Assembly: GCF_012927455.1 (NCBI RefSeq)
Contig: NZ_JABBPE010000002.1
Span: 744,001 to 808,000 of the forward strand
Length of the DNA stretch: 64,000 nucleotides
Direction of reading: 5' to 3'
Origin: Polaromonas sp.
GTDB lineage: Bacteria; Pseudomonadota; Gammaproteobacteria; Burkholderiales; Burkholderiaceae_C
In this document: positions 1,053 to 56,191 of the stretch, one piece after another
How positions within the stretch are numbered: position 1 is the first letter of the stretch
Layout of the letters: every line of letters starts with the position of its first letter
Notes under the pieces: generated by a model
Seen by the model: only the letters and a program-made list of their open reading frames with translations
What the model was told of the DNA's origin: nothing
Database searches by the model: none
Made by a program: the position numbers and the translations under genes

Positions 1053-1080
1053 GCGCAAGCAGCTATCTTTTTAATAGCAA
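1053..1080 (-). repeat. Family-A repeat, partial copy
   Basis: Contains GCGCAAGCAGCTAT, an 8-base spacer and AATAGCAA: hairpin 1 of the family (GCTAT/ATAGC arms). Hairpin 2 is only partly visible upstream, as GCGCCCGTC. Confidence 0.7.
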
Positions 1081-11845: not shown

Positions 11846-12793
11846 TCAAGGCAGCGCTGGCTGAAAAAAAACCTGCACCTCGGCGGGTAACGCGCGGCCG
11901 GTCTGGTGAGCGCGTTCAAGTACCTGCCAGAAGTAGCGGTAGCTTGCACGGTCGTGCAATTTACCATCAAAACTAGTGGGAGCCCAATCAGCACGGGCGG
12001 CACTAGCTATTATTTTTGTAGCATCTTCGATTTCGCCCTCGGTCGGGGCAAAGGCCTCCAGGATGGGCCGGATCTGGTTCGGATGAATGCTCCACATGCG
12101 GGTGTAGCCCATTTTTCGGGCGGCATGGCGTGCGGCTGTTTTCATCGCTTCGGGGTCATTGAACTCGGTGACCACGCAGTGCGACGGCACTTTTCCGTGG
12201 GCGTGGCAGGCCGAAGCGATCTCCAGCTTGGCGCGCACCACCAGCGGATGGCTGAACTGGCCCTGGCTGCTCATGCCGGCGGCCGGAATCGCGCCGCCGT
12301 GGGCCGACACGAAATCCATCAAGCCAAAACTGAGCGACTGCACCCGCGGGTGCGCCGCGATCTCGAAGGCGTGATGCACGGCGGCGGGCGATTCGATCAG
12401 CACATGCAGCGGTAAATCGTCAGCCGAGGCCGCTTTCAAGGCCTGCTCGGCCCGGATCACGTCAGCTACCGACTCCACCTTGGGAATCATGATGTGCGAG
12501 AGCTGGCGCGACAGCCTTCCGGCGATCACGTCCATATCCGCCTCAAAAGACGGATGGTCCACCGCGTGCACGCGCACCGCCACGCGGGCCTGTTCACGGG
12601 CCAGCAAGGCCAGCGCCACCACCATTGCCGCATGCTCGGCCTCGCCGCCCACGGGCGCGCCGTCCTCGCAGTCCAGCGTCACGTCAAAAACGCAGGCGCC
12701 GAACTCTTCCATCATGTCGGCCTGCAACTGCAGACTTTTGCGCATGCGCGCCTCAATGCCGCTGTAGTGGTCGCAAACCGGTAAAACCGCCAT
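11846..12793 (-). CDS. HpcH/HpaI aldolase / citrate lyase beta-like protein
   Basis: A CitE-like TIM-barrel lyase. Motifs are [19 protein letters not shown] near the N-terminus, [44 protein letters not shown] and the C-terminal [14 protein letters not shown]. Members act on malyl-CoA, citramalyl-CoA or related acyl-CoA esters with Mg2+; the true substrate is unknown. The ATG at 12793 is a compromise: family members usually begin about 12 residues earlier, and here [10 protein letters not shown] lies upstream in frame without an ATG, GTG or TTG. The frame runs on through family-B repeat DNA to an ATG at 12997, so the native start may have been displaced. A family-A repeat encodes residues near the C-terminus, in frame. 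Confidence 0.8.
11973..12023 (-). repeat. Family-A repeat inside the CitE-like gene
   Basis: On the minus strand: GATGCTACAAAAATAATAGC followed by GCCCGTGCTGATTGGGC. It is read in frame as [15 protein letters not shown] without disrupting the gene. Confidence 0.75.
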
Positions 12794-12857
12794 TGCGGCC
12801 TGAGCGCCGAGAAGTATTTGGCGGGGGTGCCTGGCTCCCGCGATGGTCGCTGCATGC

Positions 12858-12995
12858 GCTGCGCCGCCGCCCAAAAGAGCTGTGTTTGCTTGGGGCGGCC
12901 CGGCGCGGAATTCGGTTGCCCCCACGCTATTCACTTCGTGTAATGCGCGGCCTCCCGAGGAGGCTGTGCTTGCTTGGGGCGGCCCGGCGCGGCGC
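12858..12995. repeat. Family-B repeat, tandem double copy
   Basis: Two modules ending in GCTTGGGGCGGCCCGGCGCGG (12890-12910 and 12972-12992) flank GCCCCCACGCT-TTCACTTCGTGTAATGCGC. Short inverted arms such as CCTCC-CGA-GGAGG are present. A related copy occurs at 30395-30485. It fills the gap between mdh and the CitE-like gene and runs in frame into the latter's 5' end. Confidence 0.7.
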
Positions 12996-20628: not shown

Positions 20629-21558
20629 ATGTCCCTCTTAAGCTCCGAACGCAATTTCGCCCGCCGCATCGACCTGACCTCGCTTCAGCTGTTTGTCGCG
20701 GTGTGCGAACTCGGCAGCATTGGCAAGGCGGCCGAGCGCGAATTCATTGCGGCGTCGGCCATCAGCAAACGCCTGAGCGACCTGGAAGCCGCGCTGGGCA
20801 CCCCGCTGCTGTACCGCCACACGCGCGGCGTAGACCTGACGCCAGCCGGGCAAAGCCTGCTGCACCATGCACGCTCGGTGCTTTTCAGTCTGGAGAAAAT
20901 GCAGGCCGAGCTGAGCGAATACGCCGATGGCGTGCGCGGCCATGTACGCGTGCACGCCAGCATTTCGGCCATCGTGCAGTTTTTGCCCGAAGACCTGGGC
21001 GCCTTCATACGCCAGCACGCCGAGATCAAGATTGACCTGGAAGAACACCTGAGCACCGAGGTTGTGCGCGCCGTTCAGGAAGGCGCCGCCGACCTGGGCG
21101 TCTGCAACACCGCCAACGGCGTGGGCGAGCTGCAAACGCGCCCTTACCGCACCGACCAATTGGTGTTGATAGTGCCCAAAGGCCATGATCTATGCGCGCA
21201 AGGTGCTATCAATTTTGAATCAGCTCTGGACTACGACCAGGTCGGCCTGCATTCGACCAGCTCGATTTATCTGGCGCTGCGCCAGGCCGCCGCAGCGGTC
21301 GGGCGCACCATCAAGCTGCGCATTCATGTGACCGGACTGGACGCAATGTGCCGCATGATAGACAACGGCCTCGGCGTAGGCGTGATGCCGCAGCGCGCCT
21401 TTGCGCTGATGCATGGCGTCGGCGAGCTGCAAGCCATAGCGCTGCTCGATGCCTGGGCGACGCGCCGGATCGAGCTGGTGGCGCGCGATTTTTCAAGCTT
21501 GCCGGTGACCGCCCGCCTGCTGGTCGATCATCTCGCGCAGCAGCCGCTCACCGCCTAA
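20629..21558 (+). CDS. LysR-family transcriptional regulator
   Basis: 309 residues. The N-terminal helix-turn-helix domain reads LTSLQLFVAVCELGSIGKAAEREFIAASAISKRLSDLEAALGTPLLYRHTRGVDLTPAG; a periplasmic-binding-like effector domain follows. It lies 54 bp upstream of leuC in the same direction. Control of the leu genes is therefore possible but not shown, and the boxes found precede this gene, not leuC. The effector is unknown. Confidence 0.9.
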   Translation: MSLLSSERNFARRIDLTSLQLFVAVCELGSIGKAAEREFIAASAISKRLSDLEAALGTPLLYRHTRGVDLTPAGQSLLHHARSVLFSLEKMQAELSEYADGVRGHVRVHASISAIVQFLPEDLGAFIRQHAEIKIDLEEHLSTEVVRAVQEGAADLGVCNTANGVGELQTRPYRTDQLVLIVPKGHDLCAQGAINFESALDYDQVGLHSTSSIYLALRQAAAAVGRTIKLRIHVTGLDAMCRMIDNGLGVGVMPQRAFALMHGVGELQAIALLDAWATRRIELVARDFSSLPVTARLLVDHLAQQPLTA

Positions 21559-23916: not shown

Positions 23917-23939
23917 TCGAAATTAACGGGTAAATCATG

Positions 23940-23985
23940 CTCTAGCCCAATAGCCACGAGCGTTAGCAGCTATAAAAAAGATAGT
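23940..23985 (-). repeat. Family-A repeat abutting the leuB start
   Basis: CTCTAGCCCAATAGCCACGAGCG, then AGCAGCTATAAAAAAGATAG. It ends 4 bp before the leuB ATG and replaces any recognisable ribosome site. Confidence 0.8.
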
Positions 23986-29600: not shown

Positions 29601-30395
29601 GTGAGGATTGCGCTCGGTATCACTTACAGCGGCAGCGCCTACGAAGGCTGGCAAAGCCAGTTGTCGGGCAAGACCGTTCAAGACAAGCTGGAGCAGGCCT
29701 TGGCCAAGTTTGCCGTACAGCCCGTGCGAATCATGTGCGCCGGGCGTACCGATGCGGGCGTACACGCTCTGATGCAGGTCGCGCACTTCGACACCCCCCT
29801 GCAGCGTGAAACCGCGTCCTGGGTACGTGGCACCAACACCTTTTTGCCGCCCGACATTGCCGTGCAGTGGGCGCGGCAGGTCCCCGATGAATTCCATTCA
29901 CGCGGCAGCGCCATCGCGCGCCGCTATGCCTACGTGGTCCTGGAATCCCCGGTGCGCCCCAGCGTCGAGGCCGGGCGCGTCGGCTGGGTCTACCGGCCGC
30001 TGGATGGCGCGGCGATGCAACGGGCACTCGCCCATTTGCTGGGCGAGCACGACTTCAGCTCCTTTCGCGCGGCACAGTGTCAGGCCAGGTCACCCGTCAA
30101 AACCATCAGCCGCATTGAGATTTCCCAGCGCGCAAGCACAGCTTCACGCTACTGGCGCTTCGAGTTCGAAGCCAACGCGTTTTTGCACCACATGATTCGC
30201 AACATCATGGGTTGCCTACTGGCGATTGGCCAGGGCACCCATCCGCCAGATTGGCTGGCCGAGGTCGTTGCCGCACGCAGCCGCGCTGCAGCCGCTCCCA
30301 CTTTTTCTCCCGACGGCCTGTATTTTCTGGGCCCGGTTTACGAAGCGCGTTACGGCTTGCCAAATCGCACTGCCGCTTATGATTGGTTGCCATGA
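29601..30395 (+). CDS. truA: tRNA pseudouridine(38-40) synthase
   Basis: Isomerises uridines 38-40 of the anticodon stem-loop. The catalytic aspartate is in CAGRTDAGVHA; further blocks are FHSRGSAIARRYAYVV, HDFSSFRAAQCQARSPVKTI and FLHHMIRNIMGCLLAIGQG. The GTG at 29601 gives the family N-terminus VRIALGITYSGSAYEGWQSQ; a TTG three codons earlier is possible. Confidence 0.95.
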   Translation: MRIALGITYSGSAYEGWQSQLSGKTVQDKLEQALAKFAVQPVRIMCAGRTDAGVHALMQVAHFDTPLQRETASWVRGTNTFLPPDIAVQWARQVPDEFHSRGSAIARRYAYVVLESPVRPSVEAGRVGWVYRPLDGAAMQRALAHLLGEHDFSSFRAAQCQARSPVKTISRIEISQRASTASRYWRFEFEANAFLHHMIRNIMGCLLAIGQGTHPPDWLAEVVAARSRAAAAPTFSPDGLYFLGPVYEARYGLPNRTAAYDWLP

Positions 30396-30485
30396 TTGCC
30401 CCCACGCTTTTCACTTCGTGTAATGCGCTGCCGCCCGAGGGGGCCGCTGCGCCTGCGGCCCGGCGAAGCCGGTTCCGCGGCCCAG
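30395..30485 (+). repeat. Family-B repeat
   Basis: GCCCCCACGCTTTTCACTTC, then GTGTAATGCGCTGCCGCCCG and AGGGGGCCGCTGCGCC; related to the copies at 12858-12995. It begins at the truA stop codon and fills the truA-trpF gap. Confidence 0.7.
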
Positions 30486-30531
30486 GCCGGAGTGAAGAGT
30501 TACTGCGCTGTCTTCCGTTCGGGTATGGCTT

Positions 30532-31257
30532 ATGACCTCTTCTTTGCCTTTGCGCACCCGCATCAAGATTTGCGGCCTGACGCGCGAGCAAGACGTGGAC
30601 GCGGCGGTGGCCGCCGGCGCCGATGCGGTCGGCTTTGTCTTGTACGAAGCCAGCCCGCGCCATGTGACGGCCGAGCGCGCCGCCGAACTGGCGCGCCGTT
30701 TACCCCCCTTCGTCACACCGGTGCTGCTGTTCGTCAACGCAACTGCTATCAAAATAATAGCTGCCTGCGCCCGTATTCCCTCGGCTATGGTGCAATTTCA
30801 TGGTGATGAGTCACCCAATGCCTGCCTGCAGATCGGCCGGCCCTTCCTGCGTGCCGCGCGCATTCCGCTGGACGAAAACGCGGCGGCGGACGATCACCGC
30901 TTCGATCTCGTAAAATATGTCGAAGACTTCAAAGCCGCCCAGGCCATACTTTTAGACGCCCATGTCGAGGGCTATGGCGGCGGCGGAAAAACATTCAATT
31001 GGTCACTTCTTCCTCCAAACGTCAACGCTCACCTCGTCTTGTCTGGTGGGTTGACGCCTGCAAACGTGACCGATGGCATTTTGCAAGTCAGGCCGCGCTG
31101 TAAAACGCTGGCCGTTGATGTGAGCTCAGGCGTCGAGATTTCAAAAGGAATCAAGAGTCTGGAGAAAATCAATCAGTTTGTCGCAGCCGTTCGCGCTGCC
31201 GACGAACATTTCAAAAACCTTGCGGGACAGACCAGGCTACATGAGCGCAGCAAATGA
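30532..31257 (+). CDS. trpF: Phosphoribosylanthranilate isomerase
   Basis: Third step of the tryptophan branch. TIM barrel with RIKICGLTREQDVDAAVAAGADAVGFVLY (catalytic cysteine in KICG), QFHGDES, LLDAHVEGYGGGGKTFNW and the phosphate site LSGGLTPANV ... VDVSSGVE. 241 residues, slightly long, with the excess at the C-terminus. A family-A repeat encodes the stretch ATAIKIIAACARIPSAM just before QFHGDE, in frame and at the length expected of the native helix. The gene therefore looks functional. Confidence 0.93.
   Translation: MTSSLPLRTRIKICGLTREQDVDAAVAAGADAVGFVLYEASPRHVTAERAAELARRLPPFVTPVLLFVNATAIKIIAACARIPSAMVQFHGDESPNACLQIGRPFLRAARIPLDENAAADDHRFDLVKYVEDFKAAQAILLDAHVEGYGGGGKTFNWSLLPPNVNAHLVLSGGLTPANVTDGILQVRPRCKTLAVDVSSGVEISKGIKSLEKINQFVAAVRAADEHFKNLAGQTRLHERSK
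30744..30789 (+). repeat. Family-A repeat inside trpF
   Basis: TGCTATCAAAATAATAGCTG, then CCTGCGCCCGTATTCCCTCGG. It is read in frame as AIKIIAACARIPSA. Hairpin 1 is perfect (GCTAT/ATAGC). Confidence 0.8.
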
Positions 31258-40530: not shown

Positions 40531-41008
40531 TGAGCGAAGCCAAAAATCGACGATACCTTTACGGATTTATTTCCGGCAAAACGTCCGAACTTTTCGCGCT
40601 ACCCAGCTATTAAGAATGTGGTTGTGCTTGCGTCCAAGTTACACAGAACAAAGCAAAGGTGATCGCACGAAAAAAGACAAGCCTGACCAAGTGGTAGTTG
40701 GGGTCCGGGGAGTAATGGAACAGTGAACCTCCGCGGCGGCCTGCGCACAAAAAACAGCGCAGTCCGGCGCATTGCCCCGACCGGTTGCCGCAAGCTTCGC
40801 CATTTAGCTATCAATATAATAGCTGTTTGCGCCCGCCCATCATGGGCTTCAGGCACCTTTTATGTCAATACGGGGTAGGCGCATGGGCCTGATCTTCAAC
40901 CAATCCGCTGGCGCATCAAGTCCGGCAGGGCATTGGTTTTTGCATCTCATGGACCAGTTTTTCTTCTCGGGAATTTCAATTTTTATGGGTTGGTAGTTCA
41001 CCAGTAGA
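40531..41008. other. Spacer with one family-A repeat
   Basis: 478 bp between the broken reductase and the end of the transporter gene. Apart from the repeat at 40804-40852 I see no gene. Confidence 0.5.
40804..40852 (+). repeat. Family-A repeat
   Basis: TTAGCTATCAATATAATAGC, then TGTTTGCGCCCGCCCATCATGGGC. Both hairpins are clear. Confidence 0.85.
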
Positions 41009-41911
41009 TTAGCGGTGAGCCCGTATAGAGGCCAAAATGCCCAGCGTGAAAAGCACGCAGGCAACCTGCTGGAGCGGCGTGGGCCAGAGCCCATTCCAGA
41101 CAAAAGAATACAGCAGAGCGAACAGGGTTTCGCTAACGATGAGCTGCCCGCACAGGCTGGCGCTGAGCCGCTGACTGGCCAGGTTCCACAAAATGGTAGC
41201 CAGCCAGGCCGAGCCGACGCCAGTGGCCAGGCACAGCAGCGCAAACACGGGCAGGTCTTCCCTCGCTGTCAGCACGGACAGGCTTGAGCCTGCTGCCAGC
41301 CACATCAGCAGCGCGCCCAGGCCAGTGGCAATGCCCAGCCAGTTGGCCCAGTCGGTGGCATTGACTTCGGTGTGCCGCTTGAGCCAGGCTGAATTGAGAA
41401 TGGCGAATGTCGTCCAGCACACCATAGAGGCTGTCACAAAAGCCACGCCACGCCAGAAATTTGAGGCCGGCCCGTGAGCCGCCTGCTGCGTGGAGTCCAT
41501 CATTAGCAGCAAGCCCGCCAGCGTAAGTGCCAGCCCCGGCAACAGCGCAGCCCAGCGCAGGCCCTGCGGCTTGCCCAGCAGCATGACCCACAGCGGGATG
41601 GTGCCGATGATCAGCGTCGGCACCTCCGTGCCGGCATCGCGTATGGCCAGCACCAGCAGCAGGTAGTAGCCACTGAAACCCAGCACGCTCAGCAGCAGCG
41701 CGGCTGCGGCCTGGCGCCAGGTGGGCAGGCGCCGCGTGCGCAGCCCCGCCAGCATCACCACAGCTGCCAGCGCGCCGTACACGGCAAAGCGCCCGGCGCT
41801 AAGGTCGATGGACGAATAACCGCCTTCGCCCATGTTGAGCATGCGCGGCGCCACGAACACCAGCCCCCACAGCGCACCCGCCGCGAGACCGGCCAGAATG
41901 CCGATCAGCAT
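41009..41911 (-). CDS. DMT-family (EamA) transporter
   Basis: About 300 residues with ten hydrophobic segments arranged as two EamA repeats (GILAGLAAGALWGLVFVAPR opens the first; GVAFVTASMVCWTTFAILNS the second). Members export amino acids or metabolites; the substrate is unknown. I place the start at the ATG at 41911, which has AGGAAA upstream and begins the first membrane segment. ATGs at 41980 and 41989 would add a hydrophilic stretch and overlap the SDR gene. It follows the SDR gene on the same strand and may share its transcript. Confidence 0.85.
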   Translation of the reverse strand: MLIGILAGLAAGALWGLVFVAPRMLNMGEGGYSSIDLSAGRFAVYGALAAVVMLAGLRTRRLPTWRQAAAALLLSVLGFSGYYLLLVLAIRDAGTEVPTLIIGTIPLWVMLLGKPQGLRWAALLPGLALTLAGLLLMMDSTQQAAHGPASNFWRGVAFVTASMVCWTTFAILNSAWLKRHTEVNATDWANWLGIATGLGALLMWLAAGSSLSVLTAREDLPVFALLCLATGVGSAWLATILWNLASQRLSASLCGQLIVSETLFALLYSFVWNGLWPTPLQQVACVLFTLGILASIRAHR

Positions 41912-41960
41912 TCGTGAGCGGGTTTCCTGAGCGCTGGTTGGCGCGCCTTGGCGACACTGA

Positions 41961-42743
41961 TCAAGCTCCAAAACCGTCATCGGCCGCAATCACGGCACCG
42001 TTAACGAAATGGCTCTCGCCGCTGGCCAGCATGACAAGCAGCGCATCGAGGTCTTCCGGTTTGCCGATACGCTTGCGCGGCAACATTTGCACCAGCTTTT
42101 TACCCTGTTCGGTTTCCCAATGGTGGTGGTTGATTTCGGTGTCGATATAGCCGGGGCAGATCGCATTGACGTTGATGCCGAACTTGCCCCATTCCAGCGC
42201 CATGGCACGCGTCATCTGCACCACGGCGGCCTTGCTCATGCAGTACACACCGATCTGCGGCAACACGCGCAGGCCGGCCATCGATGCGATGTTGATGATG
42301 CGTCCGCCGGAGTAAGTGCCGGGAGCTGCCCCTTTGGAGCGGGCCAGCATGCGTTTGCCGACTTCCTGCGCGACAAAAAACGCGCCCTTGACATTGGTAT
42401 TGAAAATAAAGTCGTAGTCTTCCTCGGCCACATCCTGAATGCGCTGCGTTGTGCTGACGCCCGAATTGTTGACCAAAATGTCGATGGGGCCGACCTCTGT
42501 TTCGGCATGGGCCACACCCGACTTGATGCTGGCGATGTCGGTCACGTCGAGCGACACCACATGGGCATCGCCACCTTCGGCTTCGATCTGCGCGCGCAGC
42601 TCCTTGAGCTTGTCGAGCCGGCGGCTTGCCAGCACCACGGCGGCACCGGCGCGGCTCAGGGTTTTTGCAAACTGCGCACCCAAGCCACCGGAAGCGCCAG
42701 TCACCAGCGCGACGCGCCCGGAAAGATCAATGCTGTAAGCCAT
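41961..42743 (-). CDS. SDR-family oxidoreductase
   Basis: Classical short-chain dehydrogenase of 260 residues. The cofactor motif TGASGGLGAQFAKTL, NNSGVST, and the catalytic Ser-Tyr-Lys set in NIASMAGLRVLPQIGVYCMSKAAV are all present; ICPGYIDTEI follows. ASRRLDKL after the second strand, with its basic residues, suggests NADP(H). Such genes near ETF-QO are often 3-hydroxyacyl-CoA or alcohol dehydrogenases, but no substrate can be assigned. It is divergent from the ETF-QO gene. Confidence 0.9.
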   Translation of the reverse strand: MAYSIDLSGRVALVTGASGGLGAQFAKTLSRAGAAVVLASRRLDKLKELRAQIEAEGGDAHVVSLDVTDIASIKSGVAHAETEVGPIDILVNNSGVSTTQRIQDVAEEDYDFIFNTNVKGAFFVAQEVGKRMLARSKGAAPGTYSGGRIINIASMAGLRVLPQIGVYCMSKAAVVQMTRAMALEWGKFGINVNAICPGYIDTEINHHHWETEQGKKLVQMLPRKRIGKPEDLDALLVMLASGESHFVNGAVIAADDGFGA

Positions 42744-42855
42744 CAGAAACTCCTCTAGATTAAAAGTGAACGATCGTTCGGTGCCCTGTGATCACGACAT
42801 AAAATCAGCCGCAAACCGACAACCTTTCCTGAAATTCATTATCAGCGAGTCCCCA

Positions 42856-44541
42856 ATGAACAACCAAGAAATTCTGGCTCAGTTTGGCCCCCGCGAAGCC
42901 ATGGAATACGACGTGGTGGTGGTGGGCGGCGGTCCCGGCGGTCTGGCGACGGCCATTCGCCTGAAGCAGCTAGCCGCAGAAAAAGGCGCTGACGTCTCTG
43001 TGGTGGTGCTGGAAAAGGGCTCTGAGCCGGGTGCGCACATTTTGAGCGGCGCCATCATGGATCCGCGGGCGCTGACCGAGCTGTTCCCGAAGTGGAAAGA
43101 GCTGGGTGCACCGGTGACTCAAGCCGTCACGGGCGACGAGATGCTGTTCTTGAGCCAAACCGGCAAGATCAGCACGCCCGAATTCCTGATCCCGAAATCC
43201 CTGCACAACGAAGGCAACTACGTCATCAGCCTGGGCAACTTTGTGCGCTGGCTGGGCCAGCAGGCTGAGGCGCTTGGCGTGGAAATCTTTCCCGGCTTTG
43301 CGGCTGCCGAAGTCCTTTACAACGACGACGGCTCTGTGAAAGGCGTTGCCACCGGCAACCTCGGCGTCGGCAAAGACGGCCAGCCCATGGAGAACTTCCA
43401 GCTCGGCATGGAACTGCACGGCAAGTACACGATCTTTGCTGAAGGTTCGCGCGGCCACCTCGGCAAAAATCTGATCGCGAACTACAAGCTCGACGCAGAC
43501 AAAGACCCGCAAACCTACGCCCTCGGCATCAAGGAGTTGTGGGAGATTGATCCGGCTAAAGCCAAACCCGGCCATGTGGTGCACTCCTTGGGCTGGCCCA
43601 TGGACAACCAGACTTATGGCGGCGGTTTTCTCTATCACCTGGAAGACAACAAAGTTACGCTCGGCTTTATCACAGGCCTTGAATACAGCAACCCTTGGCT
43701 TAGCCCGTTTGAGGAAATGCAGCGTTGGAAGACCCATCCTGCAATTCGCCACTACCTTGAAGGCGGCAAGCGCATCAGCTACGGCGCCCGTGCCATCACC
43801 TGCGGCGGTTTGATGAGCTTGCCCAAGACCATTTTCCCCGGCGGTGCACTGGTGGGCTGCGACGCCGGCTTCCTCAACTTTGCGCGCATCAAGGGCAGCC
43901 ATGCCGCCATCAAAACGGGCATGCTGGCTGCAGACGCTGCATATGCAGCGGTGACCGGTGGCCGCCAGCACGATGAGCTGTCGGCCTACCCCGAAGCATT
44001 TGAAAAGAGCTGGTTGCACGAGGAGCTTGAAGCCTCACGCAACACCAAGCAATGGATGAAAAAAGGTCTGTTTCTGTCTTCCTTCATGAACGGAATTGAG
44101 CTGTGGCTAATGCCCAAGCTGGGCTTCAAGGCCCCGCCCTGGACCATTCATAACAAGGTAGCGGACCACGCGAAACTCAAGCTTGCGTCGGAATGCCCGC
44201 AAATCGTCTACCCCAAGCCGGATAACAAAATCACTTTTGATCGTTTAAGTTCGGTGTTTGTGTCCAACACCAACCACGAAGAGCAACAGCCGGCCCACCT
44301 GACACTCAAGGATGCCAGCATTCCGGTCACTATCAACCTGGCCCTGTATGCCGGTCCCGAAAGCCGCTATTGCCCGGCCGGCGTGTATGAATTTGTGAAA
44401 AACGCCGACAACACGGACCGGCTGCAGATCAATGCACAGAACTGCGTGCACTGCAAGACCTGTGACATCAAGGACCCCACGCAGAACATCGTGTGGGTGA
44501 CACCTGAAGGCGGCGGCGGACCGAACTACAGCGGCATGTAG
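42856..44541 (+). CDS. Electron transfer flavoprotein-ubiquinone oxidoreductase
   Basis: Passes electrons from ETF (fatty acid and amino acid oxidation) to ubiquinone at the membrane. FAD motif VVVVGGGPGGLATAIRLKQ; SEPGAHILSGAIMDP; the ubiquinone/FAD region KTIFPGGALVGCDAGFLNFARIKG; C-terminal [4Fe-4S] ligands in YCPAGVYEF and NAQNCVHCKTCDIKDPTQNI. 561 residues. The ATG at 42856 matches family starts; the frame extends upstream without support. Confidence 0.95.
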   Translation: MNNQEILAQFGPREAMEYDVVVVGGGPGGLATAIRLKQLAAEKGADVSVVVLEKGSEPGAHILSGAIMDPRALTELFPKWKELGAPVTQAVTGDEMLFLSQTGKISTPEFLIPKSLHNEGNYVISLGNFVRWLGQQAEALGVEIFPGFAAAEVLYNDDGSVKGVATGNLGVGKDGQPMENFQLGMELHGKYTIFAEGSRGHLGKNLIANYKLDADKDPQTYALGIKELWEIDPAKAKPGHVVHSLGWPMDNQTYGGGFLYHLEDNKVTLGFITGLEYSNPWLSPFEEMQRWKTHPAIRHYLEGGKRISYGARAITCGGLMSLPKTIFPGGALVGCDAGFLNFARIKGSHAAIKTGMLAADAAYAAVTGGRQHDELSAYPEAFEKSWLHEELEASRNTKQWMKKGLFLSSFMNGIELWLMPKLGFKAPPWTIHNKVADHAKLKLASECPQIVYPKPDNKITFDRLSSVFVSNTNHEEQQPAHLTLKDASIPVTINLALYAGPESRYCPAGVYEFVKNADNTDRLQINAQNCVHCKTCDIKDPTQNIVWVTPEGGGGPNYSGM

Positions 44542-45096
44542 TTCCATTTCCTGATCTTTAGCACGGAAGGGCAGTTTAGATACGACTCCCCGTTTGCCTT
44601 TTAAAGCGTACCCATTGCAATAAGTAACGTCAAAAAATTCGCATTTTCAACACTTTTTACATTCGCAGGGAGAGGAAGGGCTCAACGCAAGCTTTGAGCG
44701 CGCGGGAACCTCATCCCGGAATCGACCGGCGCGCTTCACAAATCTGACGCATTGAAGCGTTTCCTATCGGACGAATTCTGATCCACCAGAGTGCTTTTTT
44801 CTGATCTCGCCTTGAGACTTGGCGAAGATGACAGTGGAAATCGGACACGCAAACAATTGCTGACGCAGGCCGAAGAATCGATCGTTTGGTGACATGCGCG
44901 ACTGTAGGGTTGCACGGGTGCTACCCAGCCTGGAACGGCCAGGTAGACACATCCGGCACTTCGACTGAATGTAAGCTAATTTTTAGTAAGAATTCGCTAC
45001 GAAAGTCTTGAAATAACGCGGGCCATGGGCCATTCGGACTATTGCCGATTGCTGCTCAGATCTACAAACTTGCTTCATTTAGCAGTGAGGAAAACC
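44542..45096. other. Spacer upstream of the polysaccharide locus
   Basis: 555 bp, more AT-rich than its surroundings, probably carrying the promoter of the polysaccharide locus. I find no convincing -35/-10 pair, JUMPstart-like element or small gene. Confidence 0.4.
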
Positions 45097-45426
45097 ATGT
45101 CGCCCGCCCTGCTTAGTGTCTTGTTGGTAGCTGGCTTGGCTGTTGTAGCGCCCACGTCGGCGTCAACGTCAATCCAGGTTGACTCAACAACCTCCCCGTA
45201 TTCGAACTTGGAAATCGCCGCGCGCATGCCGCTGCAACCTGTAGCAGTACCCGTCCCTGTCGTCGCGGCAGGCACCGTGCCAGAGCGTCGCAGCATTCCC
45301 CAAAGCGCAGCCGACGGCCGATCCAGCGCGGACGGTTCTGGCTGGCGGACTTATGGCACCTTGTTAGCAATCCTGGTGCTAATGGCAGCCATTGCGCTAC
45401 GGCGCCACAAAGCGGGGGAAATCTAG
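45097..45426 (+). CDS. Small exported protein with C-terminal membrane anchor
   Basis: 109 residues. An N-terminal signal peptide (LLSVLLVAGLAVVAPTSAS), a short Pro/Val-rich body, then a C-terminal membrane segment (YGTLLAILVLMAAIALRR) ending in basic residues. That plan resembles sorting-signal proteins but lacks a PEP or LPXTG motif. GAGGAAA stands before the ATG. It is the first gene of the polysaccharide operon and its stop almost touches the flippase start, so a link to glycan export is plausible. No family recognised. Confidence 0.6.
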   Translation: MSPALLSVLLVAGLAVVAPTSASTSIQVDSTTSPYSNLEIAARMPLQPVAVPVPVVAAGTVPERRSIPQSAADGRSSADGSGWRTYGTLLAILVLMAAIALRRHKAGEI

Positions 45427-45427
45427 C

Positions 45428-46945
45428 GTGGGTGAACTCGGCCGTTCTGGTGTGGCCGCAGTTAAATGGAGTACTGCCGCCTCTGCGGGCCGCTTTGCAC
45501 TTCAACTACTGGCACAAGTTGTATTGGCACGAACCCTGGGGCCGGATACTTTCGGTATCTTCGCCATCGGCATGATAATTCTGACTTTCGCAAACTTCGT
45601 CTCAGGCTTTGGCTTCAGCTGGAATTTGTTGCAACGCACTACTCTGCGTGAGGAAGACATCCGTTTTGCCTGGACCTGGCAGTGCATCGTGGGAGCCGTC
45701 ACGATGCTCGGCTTGTATCTGTTGGCGCCCGTGCTGGCGGATTATTTCCGCGAGCCTAGAGCCCAGTCGGTCATTGAGTGGCTGTCGTTGGCGTGCCTGC
45801 TCGGTGCGGCTGCCGCTCCCGCGACCTACTTGTTGCAACGCGACCTGAATTTTCGTGCAGTTGGCTTGGTTCAGGTGGGCAGCTATGCCGCAGGCTATCT
45901 GGCAGTGGGTATTCCGATGGCACTGCTGGGTTGGGGAATAACGTCTCTGGTGGCCTCCTGGCTGGTCCAGGCTACGGTTGTTCTGGTGGCCAGCTATTGG
46001 CTAAAGCCGCATGCCTTGCGTCCGCTTTTTTGGTACCCCGATGCGGTCTCGTCCGTGGGCACGGGTCGTGCCGTCTTTTTCACCAACATCGTCAACTGGT
46101 TGCTCAACAATCTTGACCGCGTGCTGGTAGGACGTCTGCTCAGCGCCGAGGCCTTGGGTCTGTACAACATGGCTTACAACCTGGCAACGCTGCCCAACAC
46201 TTTGCTCGTAGGTGCCCTGCAGCCGGCATTCATGGCGGCAGGAGCGCGCCTGCAAAATGAGGTGCAACGGCTGGGCCGCGTGTACTTTCAGATGCTGGCC
46301 ACGATTTTTGTTTTGGGGCTGCCGGCTTTCGTGTTTCTTGCCCTTATTTCAAGCGACCTTGTGCGCCTGCTTTATGGTCCGCAATGGCGTGAAGCAGGCG
46401 GGGTGCTAAGCATTTTGTTCCTTGCCATGCCAGCGTACGTTGTTTGGGGTCTGTCTACCCCAATTCTCTGGAATACGGGGCGAAGGCACTATGAATATGC
46501 ATTGCAGCTGCCCCTGGTTGGCTTGGGAGTGATGGGCTTTTACTTCTTTGCCGGGCAAGGGATTCAAGCAGCGGCCACCGTCGCGGCCTTGCTGCTGGTA
46601 GTGCGTGCCATCGTGATCAGTACTGCAGCGTTTCGGGCGCTGGGGCTGCACGGGTCAACCGTGCTACAGCATGTCGCGCGCGGCTTGATGCTTAGCGCAC
46701 TGTGTTGCGCCGGGGTGTTGTCTGGCCAGCTGGCTGTCGCGCGCTTTGAAATGCCACTTCTTTCGCTGGTGACCAGCACGCTCGCGGTCTTTTTCCCCCT
46801 GACTTTGCTGCTGGCCCTGCGCCCTCAGATATTGGGTGATCAGGCAGCGGCCATGGTGCTTAGGTTTTGTCCAGGACTGGAACGCTTTTTGAGTCGCACG
46901 AAGCCGGTGCCGCTGCCGGAAAACTTGGGCGAACAGATCTTGTAG
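45428..46945 (+). CDS. Oligosaccharide flippase (Wzx/MATE-like)
   Basis: 505 residues with about 12-14 membrane segments. The N-terminal region KWSTAASAGRFALQLLAQVVLARTLGPDTFGIFAIGMI and the central LLNNLDRVLVGRLLSAEALGLYNMAYNLATLP are typical of lipid-linked oligosaccharide flippases. GTG at 45428 follows GGGGGA and comes 2 bp after the preceding stop, so translation is coupled. It should move undecaprenyl-linked repeat units across the inner membrane. Confidence 0.88.
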   Translation: MGELGRSGVAAVKWSTAASAGRFALQLLAQVVLARTLGPDTFGIFAIGMIILTFANFVSGFGFSWNLLQRTTLREEDIRFAWTWQCIVGAVTMLGLYLLAPVLADYFREPRAQSVIEWLSLACLLGAAAAPATYLLQRDLNFRAVGLVQVGSYAAGYLAVGIPMALLGWGITSLVASWLVQATVVLVASYWLKPHALRPLFWYPDAVSSVGTGRAVFFTNIVNWLLNNLDRVLVGRLLSAEALGLYNMAYNLATLPNTLLVGALQPAFMAAGARLQNEVQRLGRVYFQMLATIFVLGLPAFVFLALISSDLVRLLYGPQWREAGGVLSILFLAMPAYVVWGLSTPILWNTGRRHYEYALQLPLVGLGVMGFYFFAGQGIQAAATVAALLLVVRAIVISTAAFRALGLHGSTVLQHVARGLMLSALCCAGVLSGQLAVARFEMPLLSLVTSTLAVFFPLTLLLALRPQILGDQAAAMVLRFCPGLERFLSRTKPVPLPENLGEQIL

Positions 46946-46956
46946 GTCGAGGCATC

Positions 46957-48432
46957 ATGAATCAAGTTGTCATCATTTCCGTCCTGATCACGGGCGCTGT
47001 TCTTGCGGCACTGGCCGCAACGCTAGGCATGGCGGGCACAGTCCATCTGACTTCGCGCCGTACCCACGGCTACATGCATTTAATTTTCTATGCCTTATTG
47101 TTTACCGCGGCACTCAGTAGTCTGTTGTCCGGGCGCGACTTCGCAAACGCCAGCATAAACATTAGCCAGCAGGCTGCGCCGGGACGTCACCCCATCATGA
47201 TGTTTGCGCAGCCGCTGATCTCGCTGTTAATACTGACCGTCGCCGGCGAACGCATCGTGACGCATTGGCTAAAACGGGACAAATCGGCGCACGCGCCAGC
47301 GTTGCTATTGGTAACGTTTCTTGTCTTTTGGGCGGGTACGGTGGCAGCGCCCGCTTTAATGGGCGCCCACCCTTACCTGGCACACGACTATGTCTACCCG
47401 CTGGTCATGGGGATTGCAGCTTTACTGGTTAACGGCGCCGAACGTGACCTGGCCGTCCGGGCAGCGCGCAATGCCCTTGTGTTATTCGTCGCGGCAGGCC
47501 TGCTGCTGATTCCATTTAAAACCAGCCTGATGCTTGACACCTCCTATGCACAGGGAATGTTCCAGGGTGTGCCGCGCCTCGCAGGTCTGGCATCTCACCC
47601 GGTCACATTGGGCCTCCTTTCCCAACTTGGCTTGCTGTGCCTAATGGCATTCCCTTATCAGCGCAACTGGCTAAACCGGCTTGCATGGATGATCGGTCTC
47701 GGATCGCTCTTCATGGCGCAGTCGAAGACCGCGTGGATCGCTTTCACCCTGTGCTCGGTATGCATACTCGCTGTGCGGCGTGGCCCAGCGTGGTGGCGAC
47801 GCGTCAGCGATCCAGCGCGTCCCGAGAGCGGCGTCGTTTCTGTGCTGTTGTTCATGGTTGCGGTGGCGTCGATAAGTTTGGTTTTGATTTTTGCCGATCT
47901 AGGTTCCAGGTGGGTCAGCTTTTTCGACAGCGCAGAAGGCGCACAGTTCGCCTCGCTAACCGGCCGGGATCTTATATGGGCGATTGCCTATGACGAATGG
48001 CAACGCAACCCGCTGTTCGGTTATGGACCCACTTTGTGGGACGAAAGTTTCCGGGCCGTCATTGGCATGCCCAACGCAACCAGTGCACACAATCAGTTCA
48101 TGGATACGCTGTCGCGATCCGGATCCGTGGGCGCGTTGGCCCTGACGCTTTATGCGCTGGTGCTGCTGGTGCTGTCGCTTTACTATGCGCGAGCCAGCCG
48201 TGGGCTTTCACTGGCTCTGTTCGTCGCATTGATAGTGCGCTCAGTGAGTGAAGTTCCGCTTTCTCTCTTTGGATACGGCACAGAACTGATCACACACATC
48301 TTGCTGTTGATCACACTGGCGGCTTCTGCCGGCGAAGCCCGTGTTCGTCTGGCGCAAAGCACTGAGGACCGAAAACACGCGCCTGTTAATCCTGCCCGAG
48401 ACCCTTTAGCACCAGCCAGATTCTCTCTATGA
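46957..48432 (+). CDS. O-antigen ligase / Wzy-type polymerase
   Basis: 491 residues with about 11-12 membrane segments and a large periplasmic loop. The Wzy_C-like motif appears as GRDLIWAIAYDEWQRNPLFGYGPTLW ... SAHNQFMDTLSRSGSVGAL, the usual catalytic-loop pattern. It lies 11 bp after the flippase and its stop overlaps the next start. Ligase and polymerase roles cannot be separated by sequence; polymerase is favoured beside a flippase. Confidence 0.82.
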   Translation: MNQVVIISVLITGAVLAALAATLGMAGTVHLTSRRTHGYMHLIFYALLFTAALSSLLSGRDFANASINISQQAAPGRHPIMMFAQPLISLLILTVAGERIVTHWLKRDKSAHAPALLLVTFLVFWAGTVAAPALMGAHPYLAHDYVYPLVMGIAALLVNGAERDLAVRAARNALVLFVAAGLLLIPFKTSLMLDTSYAQGMFQGVPRLAGLASHPVTLGLLSQLGLLCLMAFPYQRNWLNRLAWMIGLGSLFMAQSKTAWIAFTLCSVCILAVRRGPAWWRRVSDPARPESGVVSVLLFMVAVASISLVLIFADLGSRWVSFFDSAEGAQFASLTGRDLIWAIAYDEWQRNPLFGYGPTLWDESFRAVIGMPNATSAHNQFMDTLSRSGSVGALALTLYALVLLVLSLYYARASRGLSLALFVALIVRSVSEVPLSLFGYGTELITHILLLITLAASAGEARVRLAQSTEDRKHAPVNPARDPLAPARFSL

Positions 48433-49418
48433 AGTTCTCTATCGTCATTCCGCTTTACAACAAAGCGCCTTACATTACCAGCACCATCGAAGCGGTCCTG
48501 GCACAGACCTTGACGGACTTCGAGGTGATTGTTGTCGACGACGGTTCAAGTGACGGCGGAGCCGAACTGGTTGCGGCCTTAACCGATCCACGCTTGTGTC
48601 TGGTGCGTCAGGACAACGCGGGTGTTTCGGTGGCCCGTAACCGGGGAATTGCACGGGCACGCGGTGACTGGGTCGTATTTCTGGACGCCGATGACGGGCA
48701 CCATCCTCGCTTCCTGGCGTCTTTGGCGGCGGCCCAAAAAATCTACCCTCAGGCGGACGCCGTAGCCACCCAATTTATGTCTCTTCCCGACAGCAGGGAC
48801 AACTGGCCGCCGCGTTGGCCAGACATAGGCGATCGCCTGAACATTGAACTCATCACGGATCTGCCTACCCGCTGGATGATGGGTCCGACTTTATGCACCG
48901 GCTCGGTAGCCATACGAACGGTGCTGCTCCAGCAAATGCAGCCCTGCTTTCCTGTTGGAGAATCGCAAGGCGAAGATATTGACCTGTGGTTTCGAATTGC
49001 CGAAAAAACATCCATCGCCCTGGTAACGAGTCCTTTGTTGGCCTACCGTACTTCGGTGGAAGGAAGTTTGACAGCGCAACACGACCCTATGCTGTTTCGG
49101 TATCCGGCAATTCAGCGGATGCGAAGACGGGCACTTTCGGGTTCCCTGTCAGCACAGCAGAGCCGGTCCACCTTGTGGTTTATAGCGCAGCAGGAAGTGT
49201 CCGGGGCCCGCCACGCAATGGCTTCAGGTCAACGTCTAGAGGGTATGCGCTGGCTGATTCGCGGACGCCACGCGGTAAGCGGCAGGCGCTGGTGGTTAAC
49301 AGCTGTTATGACGTTGCTTTTTCCAGGAAAACTGGTGAGGATTTGGGATTACCGTCGTTCGCGCCGGGCGTTGCACCCCCTCGACACCGCCAGGGCAGGA
49401 AACAGAAATGAAACCTGA
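48429..49418 (+). CDS. Glycosyltransferase family 2
   Basis: GT-A fold of 329 residues: FSIVIPLYNKAPYITSTIEAVLAQ at the N-terminus, VVDDGSSD, NAGVSVARNRGIARARGDWVVFLDADD (the DXD-type metal site) and the acceptor region GEDIDLWFRIA. It overlaps the previous gene by 4 bp (ATGA). Donor and acceptor sugars unknown. Confidence 0.9.
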   Translation: MKFSIVIPLYNKAPYITSTIEAVLAQTLTDFEVIVVDDGSSDGGAELVAALTDPRLCLVRQDNAGVSVARNRGIARARGDWVVFLDADDGHHPRFLASLAAAQKIYPQADAVATQFMSLPDSRDNWPPRWPDIGDRLNIELITDLPTRWMMGPTLCTGSVAIRTVLLQQMQPCFPVGESQGEDIDLWFRIAEKTSIALVTSPLLAYRTSVEGSLTAQHDPMLFRYPAIQRMRRRALSGSLSAQQSRSTLWFIAQQEVSGARHAMASGQRLEGMRWLIRGRHAVSGRRWWLTAVMTLLFPGKLVRIWDYRRSRRALHPLDTARAGNRNET

Positions 49419-50547
49419 GAACTTTTCCAGAACATTTCCGCTACCTGCCTGCCGCGCCGCTGTAATCGTCAAGGCGTTCAATAAAGAAAAGCGCATCCAG
49501 GCAGCAACAGAGAGCGCGCTGCGCGCAGTGCCCACCGTGAATGGTGAGGTGGTGTTTGCAGATTCCGACTCTTTCGACCGGACCGTTGAGTTGGCTCAGG
49601 CTCATCCGATAAGCATCGCGCAACTCGCGCACCCGGATAAACGCTCCTGCGGCATCGGGCCTCAATTGGGCTTTCAGCATTCGCGCGGTGAATTCATATG
49701 CCTACTTGACGGGGACATGCAAATGCTTGGTGGTTCTCTAGAGCAGGCGCTGGCTCTCCTCACGCAGCATGGGGATGTTGCCGGAACCAGTGGTCGCGTG
49801 GTCGAGCAGAACAAGAAAAGCCTAGAACACCTTGCGCGTGGGGAACGCCTCTGCACCCAACGGTCGCCAGGCAGCGTGGACCGGCGCGATGGCGGTGGAC
49901 TTTATCGGCGCAGCGCCATCGAAGACGCGGGCTATTTGTCCGACCGCAATCTTCATAGCTACGAAGAGTTTGACCTGGCGGTACGTTTGCGCGTCCTGCG
50001 CTGGCGTCTGTGGCTCCTGCCCGTGGACGCTGCCAATCACTTTGGTCAGGACGCCCCGCCCTACCGTTTGCTGATGCAGAGCTGGAGCACGCGCTACACA
50101 TCCAGACTGGGGGAACTGGTTCGCTCTGCAGCTGGTCAGCCCCGCCTTCGTTGGGTACTACACGGTCTGCGTGATCTGCAGCTCTTCGTGGCTGTTATGG
50201 CATGGTGGCTCGCGATGGTCAGCATAGCTTTCTGGCCGGTTTCTGCAGCTTGGCGCCTGGCGTTTTTTTGCGCGCTGCTTACCGCACCCGTGCTACTAAT
50301 GACCTGGCGCAAGCGGTCTGTCACCAAGGCTGTTTATGCCGTGGTGTCCTGGTGTTTCAATGCTGCCGGGTTGTTGCGCGCGCGGAGCCCTGCGCGCGCG
50401 CTCATCTCCAGACGGATTTTCAAGGAGCCCGCCATCCCAACCGCCGCAGTCGATGCCAACAGCGACTTTTTGGAACCCTTACCGGTTCCCTGCAAAAACA
50501 GATATGAATCAACATCGTGGTTCCTGCCAACTCCTACATTTAGCTAG
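49408..50547 (+). CDS. Glycosyltransferase family 2 with C-terminal membrane segments
   Basis: 379 residues. AAVIVKAFNKEKRIQAATES, ADSDSFDRTVELA and ICLLDGDMQMLGG give the GT-A nucleotide and metal sites; EEFDLAVRLRVL is the acceptor-side motif. Two hydrophobic segments at about residues 255-300 suggest membrane attachment. It overlaps the preceding gene by 11 bp. Confidence 0.85.
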   Translation: MKPENFSRTFPLPACRAAVIVKAFNKEKRIQAATESALRAVPTVNGEVVFADSDSFDRTVELAQAHPISIAQLAHPDKRSCGIGPQLGFQHSRGEFICLLDGDMQMLGGSLEQALALLTQHGDVAGTSGRVVEQNKKSLEHLARGERLCTQRSPGSVDRRDGGGLYRRSAIEDAGYLSDRNLHSYEEFDLAVRLRVLRWRLWLLPVDAANHFGQDAPPYRLLMQSWSTRYTSRLGELVRSAAGQPRLRWVLHGLRDLQLFVAVMAWWLAMVSIAFWPVSAAWRLAFFCALLTAPVLLMTWRKRSVTKAVYAVVSWCFNAAGLLRARSPARALISRRIFKEPAIPTAAVDANSDFLEPLPVPCKNRYESTSWFLPTPTFS

Positions 50548-50625
50548 AACGCCCCATGACCAACCTTCTTAAGCCTGCGCTGTCCCGGATGCCGAAACTC
50601 ACCTCTCCAGATACCGAAAACACCC

Positions 50626-51813
50626 ATGCGAAGTGAACCGATGCCCCGAACCGCTGCCCGCGAGCGTGGCGGCCGCTATATCTACATTGCCTGCCCGTGG
50701 GCACCCAAAGGCGGGGGCATGTTCAAGGTTGCGGATTACCTGATACAGGCCCAGGCATTTTCCACGCCCGCCGAGGCAGCCGAGTTACGCCCCCTTGATA
50801 CGCGCGGCGGTGCCCATGCGCTTTTTTCTGTTTGGGTTCTTGCTACTGCCCTGGCCAAGCTGGTGCGCGGACGCTTGAATGGCCAGCTGGTAGGCGTGCA
50901 TGTCAATATGGCCGAACGACTGAGCCTGTTTCGCAAGAGTGCCATCGTCGTCATGAGCCGCGCTCTGGGTGTGCCCGTGGTGCTGCATCTGCACGCTGCA
51001 CAGATGCCCAATTTTTACCGTTCGCTGCCTCTTCTTCTGCAGGCCATGACTCGCTGGGTATTTTCCTTGCCAGCCAGCTGTGTGGTGCTGGGCGCTATTG
51101 CACAGCGCTTTGTCATCGACGAACTACGAGTTCCTGCTGATCGTGTCGAGGTCGTCATTAACGGTGTTCCCGAGCCGACGCAGACGCGTCGCAAGGCCGT
51201 GGTTGATAGCGTACAGCGCGTGCTGTTTGTGGGCAACCTTTTAGAACGCAAGGGCGTTTCAGATCTCTTGAGGGCACTGGCGTTGCCCGGGTTTGAAGCC
51301 TTGCGCTTGGAGGTTAACCTGGCGGGAGGCGGCGATCTGGAGACCTACCAGATGAAAGCGCGGCAGCTTGGCGTGGACGGCTTTGTGCGCTTTGAAGGCT
51401 GGTCGGATCAACAACAGGTCGCGCATTTGATGGCGCGTGCCGATGTGCTTGTTTTGCCCGCCTACGACGAGGGCTTACCGCTGGTCATTTTGGAGGCACT
51501 GGCCAATGGCGTTGCCGTGGTCTGTACTCCTGTCGGAGAAATACCTTCGTTGCTGACCGATGGCGTCAACGCCTGCTTTGTTCAACCCGGCGATGTCGCG
51601 AGCATCGCGGCTGGCCTGCAACGCGTGTTGCTCCAACCGGCGCTGAGAGAAGCGCTCGAACGCAACGGACGCGTGCTCTACGAACAGCAATTTTCATTGA
51701 CCCGGTTTTTTGCAAACATTGCACGCGTTCATCAGCGCTGTTTCGGCATCGCAGGCCGGCCCCTGCGAAGCAGCAACACAACAGAGCAGAGCAGCGATCG
51801 CCATGATTACTGA
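50626..51813 (+). CDS. Glycosyltransferase family 4
   Basis: GT-B fold of 395 residues. N-terminal ACPWAPKGGGMFKVADYL; C-terminal donor domain VLFVGNLLERKGVSDLLRAL and the EX7E motif in DEGLPLVILEALANGVAVVCTPVGEIPSLL. A retaining transferase, probably adding a sugar from a nucleotide donor to the lipid-linked unit. The stop overlaps the next gene's start region. Confidence 0.9.
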   Translation: MRSEPMPRTAARERGGRYIYIACPWAPKGGGMFKVADYLIQAQAFSTPAEAAELRPLDTRGGAHALFSVWVLATALAKLVRGRLNGQLVGVHVNMAERLSLFRKSAIVVMSRALGVPVVLHLHAAQMPNFYRSLPLLLQAMTRWVFSLPASCVVLGAIAQRFVIDELRVPADRVEVVINGVPEPTQTRRKAVVDSVQRVLFVGNLLERKGVSDLLRALALPGFEALRLEVNLAGGGDLETYQMKARQLGVDGFVRFEGWSDQQQVAHLMARADVLVLPAYDEGLPLVILEALANGVAVVCTPVGEIPSLLTDGVNACFVQPGDVASIAAGLQRVLLQPALREALERNGRVLYEQQFSLTRFFANIARVHQRCFGIAGRPLRSSNTTEQSSDRHDY

Positions 51814-53479: not shown

Positions 53480-53491
53480 CGGAGATCTGAC

Positions 53492-54517: not shown

Positions 54518-54529
54518 GGCCGATGCCCG

Positions 54530-54785
54530 CCAGTCTGGACGTCGTGTGGCAGCTGGATTTGAAGCCAAGGTCCTTAACAGGGCATCCGAGAACGGTTTGT
54601 CGTTACTGCCAACCGGTCGGCTGCGAGAGGCTGCCACGCCTAGGCGCTGCATGGTGGCGAGGATTGTTTCTCCCCCTTCATCGGTGAGTCGTTGTCCGAG
54701 TGAACGGCGAGCTGATTTGGCGTATGGTTGACGACGATTGCCTTGCCCGGCGTGTTGCGGGCAGTCATAAATAAGTAAGCGGTTA
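54530..54785 (-). pseudogene. IS3-family transposase, C-terminal remnant
   Basis: The minus strand reads NQLAVHSDNDSPMKG in one frame, then TILATMQRLGVAASRSRPVG and SNDKPFSDALLRTL in the next. This is the second Asp and the Glu-side part of an IS3 DDE domain, although the usual glutamate position is altered. A frameshift lies in the run of five C at 54672-54676. It abuts the epimerase gene. Confidence 0.75.
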
Positions 54786-54845
54786 GCAAAGTCATCTTGA
54801 GTCCTGTCAAAGAGTTGGCCAACATGGTGTCCACAATACAAACAG

Positions 54846-55200
54846 GTGGACACGATAGAAACCAAGAAAGTGACGCGCAGAAAGGACAGCGCTGAGTTTC
54901 GAGACGAGGTGCTTCAGGCCTGCCGCCAGAGTGGCGCATTCGTTGCCGCGATAGCGCTGCGCAGCGGGCTGAACGCCCACGTGGCGCACCGGTGGTTGAG
55001 CCAAGATGGCCGAACGCATGATGGCGGTGGCGGCAATCGTGGCACGGTGACTGGCAACTCTGACACGGAATTTTTGCCTTTGCAGTTGCCGCAGCCAACT
55101 GTGGCCACTCCCTCGCCAGAAATTGGCGTCGAGGTGCGCCGAGGAGCGTCACAGTGAACTGGCCACTGCAAGCAAGTGCCGAGTGTGCCGCTTGGCTGCG
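54846..55200 (+). pseudogene. tnpA: IS66-family accessory protein TnpA, frameshifted
   Basis: Starts MDTIETKKVTRRKDSAEFRD and continues SGLNAHVAHRWLSQ, the helix-turn-helix of IS66 TnpA. The first frame ends in EIGVEVRRGASQ. The true C-terminus (VTVNWPLQASAECAAWLRKW) continues in another frame, so one base was lost near 55150. Confidence 0.75.
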
Positions 55201-55203
55201 CAA

Positions 55204-55425: not shown

Positions 55426-55581
55426 GCGTGTGAAAACCCTGCGTACAACCAAAACCCTCTGAGGGCTTGCTGCTCGTTAGATTCCGTTACATCTGAAATG
55501 CCTCTGACGTCACTTTTTCCGATGGGTCACGCGTTGTAGAGCTACCGGCCGTCAATCAGGCTTTAAACCAGGAAGCAATAA

Positions 55582-56181: not shown

Positions 56182-56191
56182 CACTCATTTA

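Follow-up and report, generated by a model that had tools for sequence, protein, structure and literature searches.

The trpF gene of this Polaromonas genome (4.47 Mb in 22 contigs) raises the question of how a sequence dispersed over the chromosome can also serve as part of a protein-coding gene. We analysed the stretch of 64,000 nucleotides that contains it, hereafter the window (G000:C9:744001-808000), in which an earlier note had reported copies of one repeat in the same frame in trpF and in a CitE-like gene. Profile searches recover both copies, in the same phase (sense p2), and the relevant features are the following:

30532..31257, plus strand: trpF (phosphoribosylanthranilate isomerase), the host gene; Pfam PF00697 PRAI, E 3.4e-35; solved homologues 1lbm/1nsj, E 1.9e-34
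30744..30788, plus strand: motif copy in trpF, model positions 1-45, sense p2; 38.5 bits, E 5.2e-11
30795..30801, plus strand: continuation of the trpF copy in register, an ATTT block and the following AT, motif positions 52-58; read by eye against the wider profile
11846..12793, minus strand: body of the CitE-like (HpcH/HpaI) gene; Pfam PF03328, E 9.7e-17; solved homologue 3r4i, E 1.7e-90
11981..12023, minus strand: motif copy in the CitE-like gene, model positions 1-43, sense p2; 31.0 bits, E 1.1e-8

The trpF copy is translated as (T)AIKIIAACARIPSA. The start of the CitE-like gene was placed by a home-made gene finder, and the open frame extends to 12997. Residues 1-56 of this long reading frame are the translation of a second repeat family, of 70% G+C, and so produce numerous additional protein matches in the genome; the real start is therefore more internal.

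The sequence shared by the two genes belongs to a dispersed DNA motif of about 57-66 bp, in which the blocks GCTAT, ATAGCTGCTTGCGCCCGT, TGGGCTAGAGGC, ATTT and AA(A/T) follow each other in this order and at constant spacing, with free letters between them. With up to three mismatches, the 18-base core ATAGCTGCTTGCGCCCGT is matched 541 times in the genome, against 3 times for the reversed control. Predicted genes (701,574 bp) hold 32 stretches scoring at least 10 bits and 24 scoring at least 20 bits, against 1 and 0, respectively, when the same genes are reversed. The information content of the 71 copies spanning both ends of the model is 66.5 bits over 63 columns; letters are free at positions 7-13 and 32-37, and a wider profile made from 94 copies adds further AT blocks at 52-55 and 63-65, with one helical turn between them. 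At positions 9-10, 53-54 and 63-64, AA and TT are exchanged as units and TA steps are rare (3, 5 and 3 of 106, respectively), which suggests that these blocks are A-tracts and that the motif is read through the shape of the DNA.

The motif contains two palindromic blocks, but compensatory change was found in neither stem (0 of 9 pairs, in 50 copies from the same genome). Between tandem genes the copies show no preference for either strand (28 versus 28). These two observations, along with the exchange of AA and TT as units, argue for a motif of double-stranded DNA rather than RNA. An RNA hairpin or terminator is likewise disfavoured by the even strand split and the lack of covariation, and the whole window has no Rfam match. 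However, in genus g40 palindromy is retained with different letters, the pairing of the second palindrome being shifted in register from i+j=68 to i+j=66; a hairpin could also explain this, and it counts against a reading in terms of DNA only.

We surveyed a sample of 864 kb, consisting of the window and 40 stretches of 20 kb, and counted as strong those copies with E < 1e-3 in a search with an iterated profile; genes were called with a home-made hexamer finder and make up 86.8% of the sample. Among the 132 strong copies (about one per 6.5 kb overall), 97 are intergenic, 25 lie wholly within genes, eight overlap a 3' end and two a 5' end. The motif is therefore about 25 times denser between genes (97 copies in 114 kb, 0.85 per kb) than within them (25 in 750 kb, 0.033 per kb). 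By type of gap, there are 38 copies in 79 convergent, 56 in 323 tandem and 11 in 86 divergent ones. Copies are spaced at random rather than evenly (variance/mean 0.84, with a random range of 0.66-1.37). The intergenic copies that span both model ends (71 of the 97) served for the profile and for the count of open frames given below, and 50 of these, with none from trpF or CitE, make up model R1. A gap-free match to the model of 53 positions was obtained for all 25 intragenic and for 96 of the 97 intergenic strong copies. The other copies in the window are:

1053..1079, minus strand: partial motif copy, positions 1-27; 23.0 bits
1419..1473, minus strand: intergenic motif copy; 40.0 bits
6043..6098, plus strand: motif copy; 45.4 bits
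8358..8413, minus strand: intergenic motif copy; 55.4 bits
20444..20497, plus strand: intergenic motif copy; 43.3 bits
21180..21215, minus strand: weak partial copy within the gene at 20629-21558; 18.4 bits, and with E 0.016 in the scan of the sample outside the 25 intragenic copies
23932..23984, minus strand: intergenic motif copy; 39.1 bits
34393..34447, plus strand: intergenic motif copy; 48.0 bits
37024..37076, minus strand: intergenic motif copy; 55.4 bits
40807..40861, plus strand: motif copy; 43.9 bits
58819..58872, minus strand: motif copy over the 3' end of the gene at 58861-59589; 55.4 bits

The 18 kb from 40862 to 58818 have no motif copy and are partly of reduced G+C content (0.565-0.607 per 4 kb between 44 and 56 kb); the region may have been acquired recently, in which case uptake signals would be expected to be scarce.

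The first part of the answer comes from protein length. We compared 159 trpF sequences from three overlapping sets (genus, 50; family search, 29; named records, 80), in which some genomes are repeated. The segment that holds the motif is 31 residues long in all 159, while its motif score spans 0-38 bits; none of 771 background windows taken from these genes exceeds -0.8 bits. Scores of at least 5 bits are found in 91 of the 159 (genus 30/50, family 17/29, named records 44/80). In the CitE-like gene the segment has equal length at 30 of 30 genus loci, and 25 of 29 relatives score at least 5 bits. There is thus no insertion boundary in either gene, and the motif comes and goes among orthologues at constant protein length. 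The earlier note was right that length is unchanged at both sites, but its proposal that a repeat had been inserted and exapted, replacing a native helix, does not hold, as segments that lack the motif are just as long as those that carry it and the helix is present in motif-free homologues. Moreover, of 28 genomes belonging to other genera of the family, 16 have the same nucleotides at the same place of trpF, an occurrence that the note itself had named as evidence against insertion. Among named records, the trpF motif is present in Polaromonas (19/27), Rhodoferax (7/11), Curvibacter (3/4), Comamonas (3/4), Hylemonella (1/1), Ramlibacter (1/5), Acidovorax (1/3), Paracidovorax (1/3) and others (8/18), and absent from the single records of Variovorax, Pseudorhodoferax, Caenimonas and Delftia (0/4).

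Structures agree with this picture. The solved TrpF homologues 1lbm/1nsj, which we take to be the Thermotoga maritima enzyme, align across the motif segment without a gap. The predicted TrpF structure (mean pLDDT 84) places there a TIM-barrel helix at residues 72-81 (pLDDT about 95), in line with the helix that had been supposed from the sequence. Likewise, 3r4i aligns without a gap through the CitE segment, where the homologue has the peptide ATEILLAAQSAQWGPT, and judging from this alignment the CitE helix is native; a single-sequence structure prediction for CitE had a mean pLDDT of 46 and was left out.

In a trpF tree built without the segment, presence or absence of the motif needs 12 changes, at least 6 of them forced by well-supported branches. 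Within the genus, the trpF motif is found in 30 of the 34 genomes with at least 10 copies genome-wide, being missing in the other four, and in none of the 16 with fewer. However, this correlation is clustered by phylogeny, with one independent pair on well-supported branches and four on the best tree, so that it is weak as independent evidence.

Motif-bearing trpF genes of the genus have TTT and CAT at codons 26-27 of the segment in 30/30 cases each, against 12/20 and 7/20 in motif-free ones (counts that exclude L057 and L058, whose gene appears to be interrupted by an insertion elsewhere). At matching residues, motif bearers use ATA in 25/25 cases and GCT in 23/23 and 26/28, whereas genome-wide these codons make up 6.4% of Ile and 8.9% of Ala codons. 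The continuation at 30795-30801 also uses synonymous codons. Nevertheless, synonymous conservation is not higher in the segment (0.257) than in the rest of the gene (0.277). In comparison with motif-free relatives, 72 codon changes in the segment are synonymous and 194 are not, the corresponding numbers for the remainder of the gene being 1273 and 789. As most changes in the segment are non-synonymous, the helix that houses the motif in trpF is permissive, and the match is not written in synonymous changes alone.

The 25 strong intragenic copies are spread over 23 predicted genes, 22 of them with a Pfam match, including those for TrpF, the CitE-like protein, NAD(P)H-hydrate dehydratase, EarP, a UvrD-like helicase, CoaBC, DprA, an HrpA-like and a FolC-like protein. 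The earP and uvrD-like genes (L067:6051-7199 and L068:16255-19530) have two copies each, in opposite orientation. The host without a Pfam match (L083:19705-19998) is probably not a gene.

By phase, 11 intragenic copies are sense p2, 8 anti p0, 3 anti p2, 2 sense p0, 1 anti p1 (in the gene without a Pfam match) and none sense p1, and even phases are rejected (p 0.00035). In the same order, the frame is open in 54, 30, 0, 0, 29 and 16 of the 71 intergenic copies, from which a filter against stop codons predicts 10.5, 5.8, 0, 0, 5.6 and 3.1 of the 25. Random insertion followed by such a filter alone is also rejected, since it predicts no copies in two phases where 5 of the 25 sit and about 8.7 in two phases where one sits; avoidance of stops accounts for the leading phase only, that is, for part of the bias. 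The phase bias suspected in the earlier note is thus real, and the favoured phases do give acceptable peptides, but a stop filter acting after insertion fails to explain it. The five copies in phases that are closed in 71/71 intergenic copies have lost the stop-forming base (two carry G in place of T15, and three are altered at position 3 or 5) and retain the motif on both sides. That trpF and CitE share one phase is a weak coincidence, as two random copies among the 24 in Pfam-supported genes do so with a probability of 0.32.

Over 14 intragenic sites, 141 of 170 comparisons with orthologues are length-neutral (excluding one empty row of DUF3025 and two of UvrD_b; orthologues for 12 sites other than trpF and CitE came from 8 chosen genomes). 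The remaining 29 concern Nnr, SpoU, UvrD_b, DprA and others, where the copies lie in variable linkers and gain or loss of pieces is possible.

At many sites, part of the motif is carried by synonymous codon choice. Across 525 synonymous differences in 14 motif copies, the codon of the genome under study raises the motif score over that of the orthologue by 3.39 bits on average, against a mean of 0.00 (sd 1.03) in 1597 control placements; a positive value is expected here, the sites having been picked for matching in this genome, and the weight of the test lies in the gain being borne by codons for identical residues. In CoaBC, for instance, a motif-poor relative (G031, 8 matches) has RAQAASVFIATAAVADWR where this genome has RAQTATIFIATAAVADWR, and codons differ throughout the motif part. 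EarP, FolC and DUF3025 differ from their relatives in a similar way.

The motif is not restricted to this genome. With up to two mismatches, the core is found in 90 of 250 genomes of the family, with 398 matches in the genome under study and 180 and 6 in two congeners; where counts per genome are low, single matches may be due to chance, as judged from the control column. The model is matched in 41 of 61 genus genomes (with at most 92 matches per genome listed) and in none of the other 20. All 13 family members chosen for having core matches also match the model, 2 to 150 times each. Twenty copies from each of three other genera display a consensus of their own at the same spacing, 59 of the 60 being gap-free and one dropped for an indel; g40, for example, has GCGCAGGT...TGCGCT where this genome has GCGCCCGT...TGGGCT. 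As these copies were picked with the Polaromonas model, the differences between such dialects are minimal estimates.

The best explanation for these data, to which we give a probability of about one half, is a motif of double-stranded DNA with constant spacing, blocks resembling A-tracts and dialects that differ between genera, which evolves in place and for which a drive like that of uptake signals is the favoured cause. We are confident of its first component, a motif acting at the DNA level and evolving in place, and hold the second, molecular drive of the uptake type, more tentatively. The motif would be written into permissive stretches by substitution, through point mutation and homologous replacement by better-matching alleles, and be maintained by a genome-wide process acting on DNA. 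This process may be biased DNA uptake followed by recombination, a molecular drive of the kind that applies to uptake signal sequences in Haemophilus and Neisseria. At helix 3 of TrpF and the C-terminal helix of CitE, the native peptides A..I.AACA and AT.I..AA..A.W would already be near one reading of the motif, so that it could form there at little cost.

Uptake with recombination is favoured because it fits the in-place evolution, avoidance of genes, frame preference, AT tracts and dialects known from USS of Pasteurellaceae and DUS of Neisseriaceae. USS evolve through point mutation rather than as inserted elements, contain AT tracts and are less frequent in coding sequence (PMC7811141), and both systems share with our motif hundreds of dispersed copies, preferred frames within genes, AT tracts beside the core and lineage dialects (PMC7811141, PMC3630211, PMC2346458). 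However, the USS/DUS core has 9-12 bp, whereas our motif is conserved over about 57 positions; USS and DUS are also denser, and their bearers belong to other families, two of which are named in PMC7811141. The great length of the motif, its low density and random spacing, and a ComEC that does not discriminate all weaken the uptake reading. ComEC occurs in 37 of the 41 genus genomes that carry the motif and in 16 of the 20 that do not (53/61), and its presence is no proof of competence. In the genome under study, ComEC matches the Competence domain as two segments separated by about 90 codons, within an open frame of 928 aa (L329 1906-2985, G000:C12:394405-395484), and the locus has a weak motif copy (L329 2343-2392, 17.2 bits).

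It is conceivable, at a likelihood somewhat short of even, that Polaromonas and related Comamonadaceae have a third, independently evolved uptake-signal system, long, dependent on DNA shape and split into genus dialects, whose drive would rewrite codons of trpF, coaBC, earP and folC. We found no published description of the motif using its core letters or uptake sequences in Comamonadaceae as queries, in a search that covered few subscription papers and is not proof. Were the motif to serve as an uptake signal, sequence-biased DNA uptake would have originated a third time, and its length would break the rule of short signals. The long-standing question of drive or selection would then be testable in free-living bacteria, as one genus holds near relatives with and without the motif.

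The main rival is that a regulatory protein, or one that organises the chromosome, binds the motif, which would be selected wherever it fits, genes included. We consider this unlikely, though it accounts for much: fixed spacing, two palindromic blocks, A-tract-like blocks, enrichment between convergent genes (38 copies in 79 gaps) and genus dialects would all suit such a site, and in-place evolution suits selection as well as drive. However, with 20 of 61 genus genomes lacking a model match it would be dispensable in near relatives, 4 of the 34 motif-rich genomes do not preserve the conserved positions within trpF, and no candidate protein emerged. If the motif were nonetheless a protein-binding site, it would be an unusually information-rich one that reshapes proteins.

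Ectopic gene conversion, by which an intergenic copy overwrote codons of trpF and CitE through short similarity while keeping length, appears improbable. The native AACA codons resemble the motif core, hundreds of donor copies are available, and intermediate scores could reflect decay after a single conversion. A recombination step may also have contributed, since Treangen et al. (PMC2397512) argue that recent DUS are due to recombination rather than point mutation. However, matches in trpF end where coding constraint begins and return in register downstream, at 30795-30801. In addition, the copies in stop-containing frames keep the motif on either side of a single avoided base, as a tract copied in one step would not, and synonymous matches adjoin conserved residues in EarP, CoaBC and FolC.

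Finally, a REP/MITE-like mobile repeat that inserted in genes and was exapted, on the model of the Rickettsia palindromic elements (the earlier note's reading), is very improbable: palindromic blocks, extragenic enrichment, a Y1 transposase-domain gene (Y1_Tnp) in 60 of 61 genus genomes with single copies near some Y1 loci, and motif copies in SpoU and Nnr that lie in linkers of variable length speak for it, but we reject it for trpF and CitE on length neutrality, gap-free PDB homologues and the trpF position shared between genera, and the stems lack compensatory changes while the Y1 gene is also present in all 20 motif-free genomes.

Known repeat families differ from the motif in similar respects. 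REP sequences are short, palindromic and intergenic, prefer convergent gaps and have been reported inside genes (PMC3733652), all as seen here. However, neither of the REP tags GTAG/CGTC is present at either end of the motif consensus (read by eye), and the motif lacks flanking of a RAYT on both sides, stem covariation and insertion. Mobilisation by a RAYT is rejected, as Y1_Tnp is present whatever the motif content and two-sided flanking was seen at none of the 10 loci read; one motif copy lies within a few hundred bases at 2 of 8 Y1 loci of relatives, and the C15 locus of the genome under study has a weak copy (11.5 bits). Rickettsia palindromic elements are similarly dispersed and in frame in unrelated protein genes, but according to PMC10969869 they are insertions of about 150 bp that add a peptide, whereas our motif adds no length at trpF or CitE and is variable at SpoU and Nnr. 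Whichever process maintains the motif, dispersed "repeats" found in frame within genes should not be labelled exapted mobile elements until they have been examined for recoding that is synonymous and leaves length unchanged.

BRE, described from Bordetella and Polaromonas, are like the motif in occurring in Polaromonas sp. JS666 and other Comamonadaceae and in being partly intra-coding, but they measure about 90 bp with 69% G+C on average (PMC3110155), against 57-66 bp and 41-49% G+C for the motif copies of the window. Identity with BRE is rejected on base composition, and the 70% G+C family of the window, at 12834-12992 and 30391-30500 and with 16 matches in the 864-kb sample, resembles the published BRE better, in size and G+C, a likeness by description rather than by sequence.

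The trpF gene has two further peculiarities. Its codons 148-191 (window 30973-31104) have near-invariant synonymous codons across many genera: in 154 sequences, 74 of the 132 nucleotides are at least 97% identical, whereas codons 101-144 have 28 such columns among 156, and AAT, TCA, CCA, CTC and GGT are among the codons practically fixed. This suggests, from nucleotide conservation, a second and unrelated overlapping element. In the trpF genes of G043 and G050 (L057 and L058), the query is matched in two pieces around residues 114-121 within a single open frame, as if a short insertion were present there, and their motif match is, by score, at the usual trpF site.
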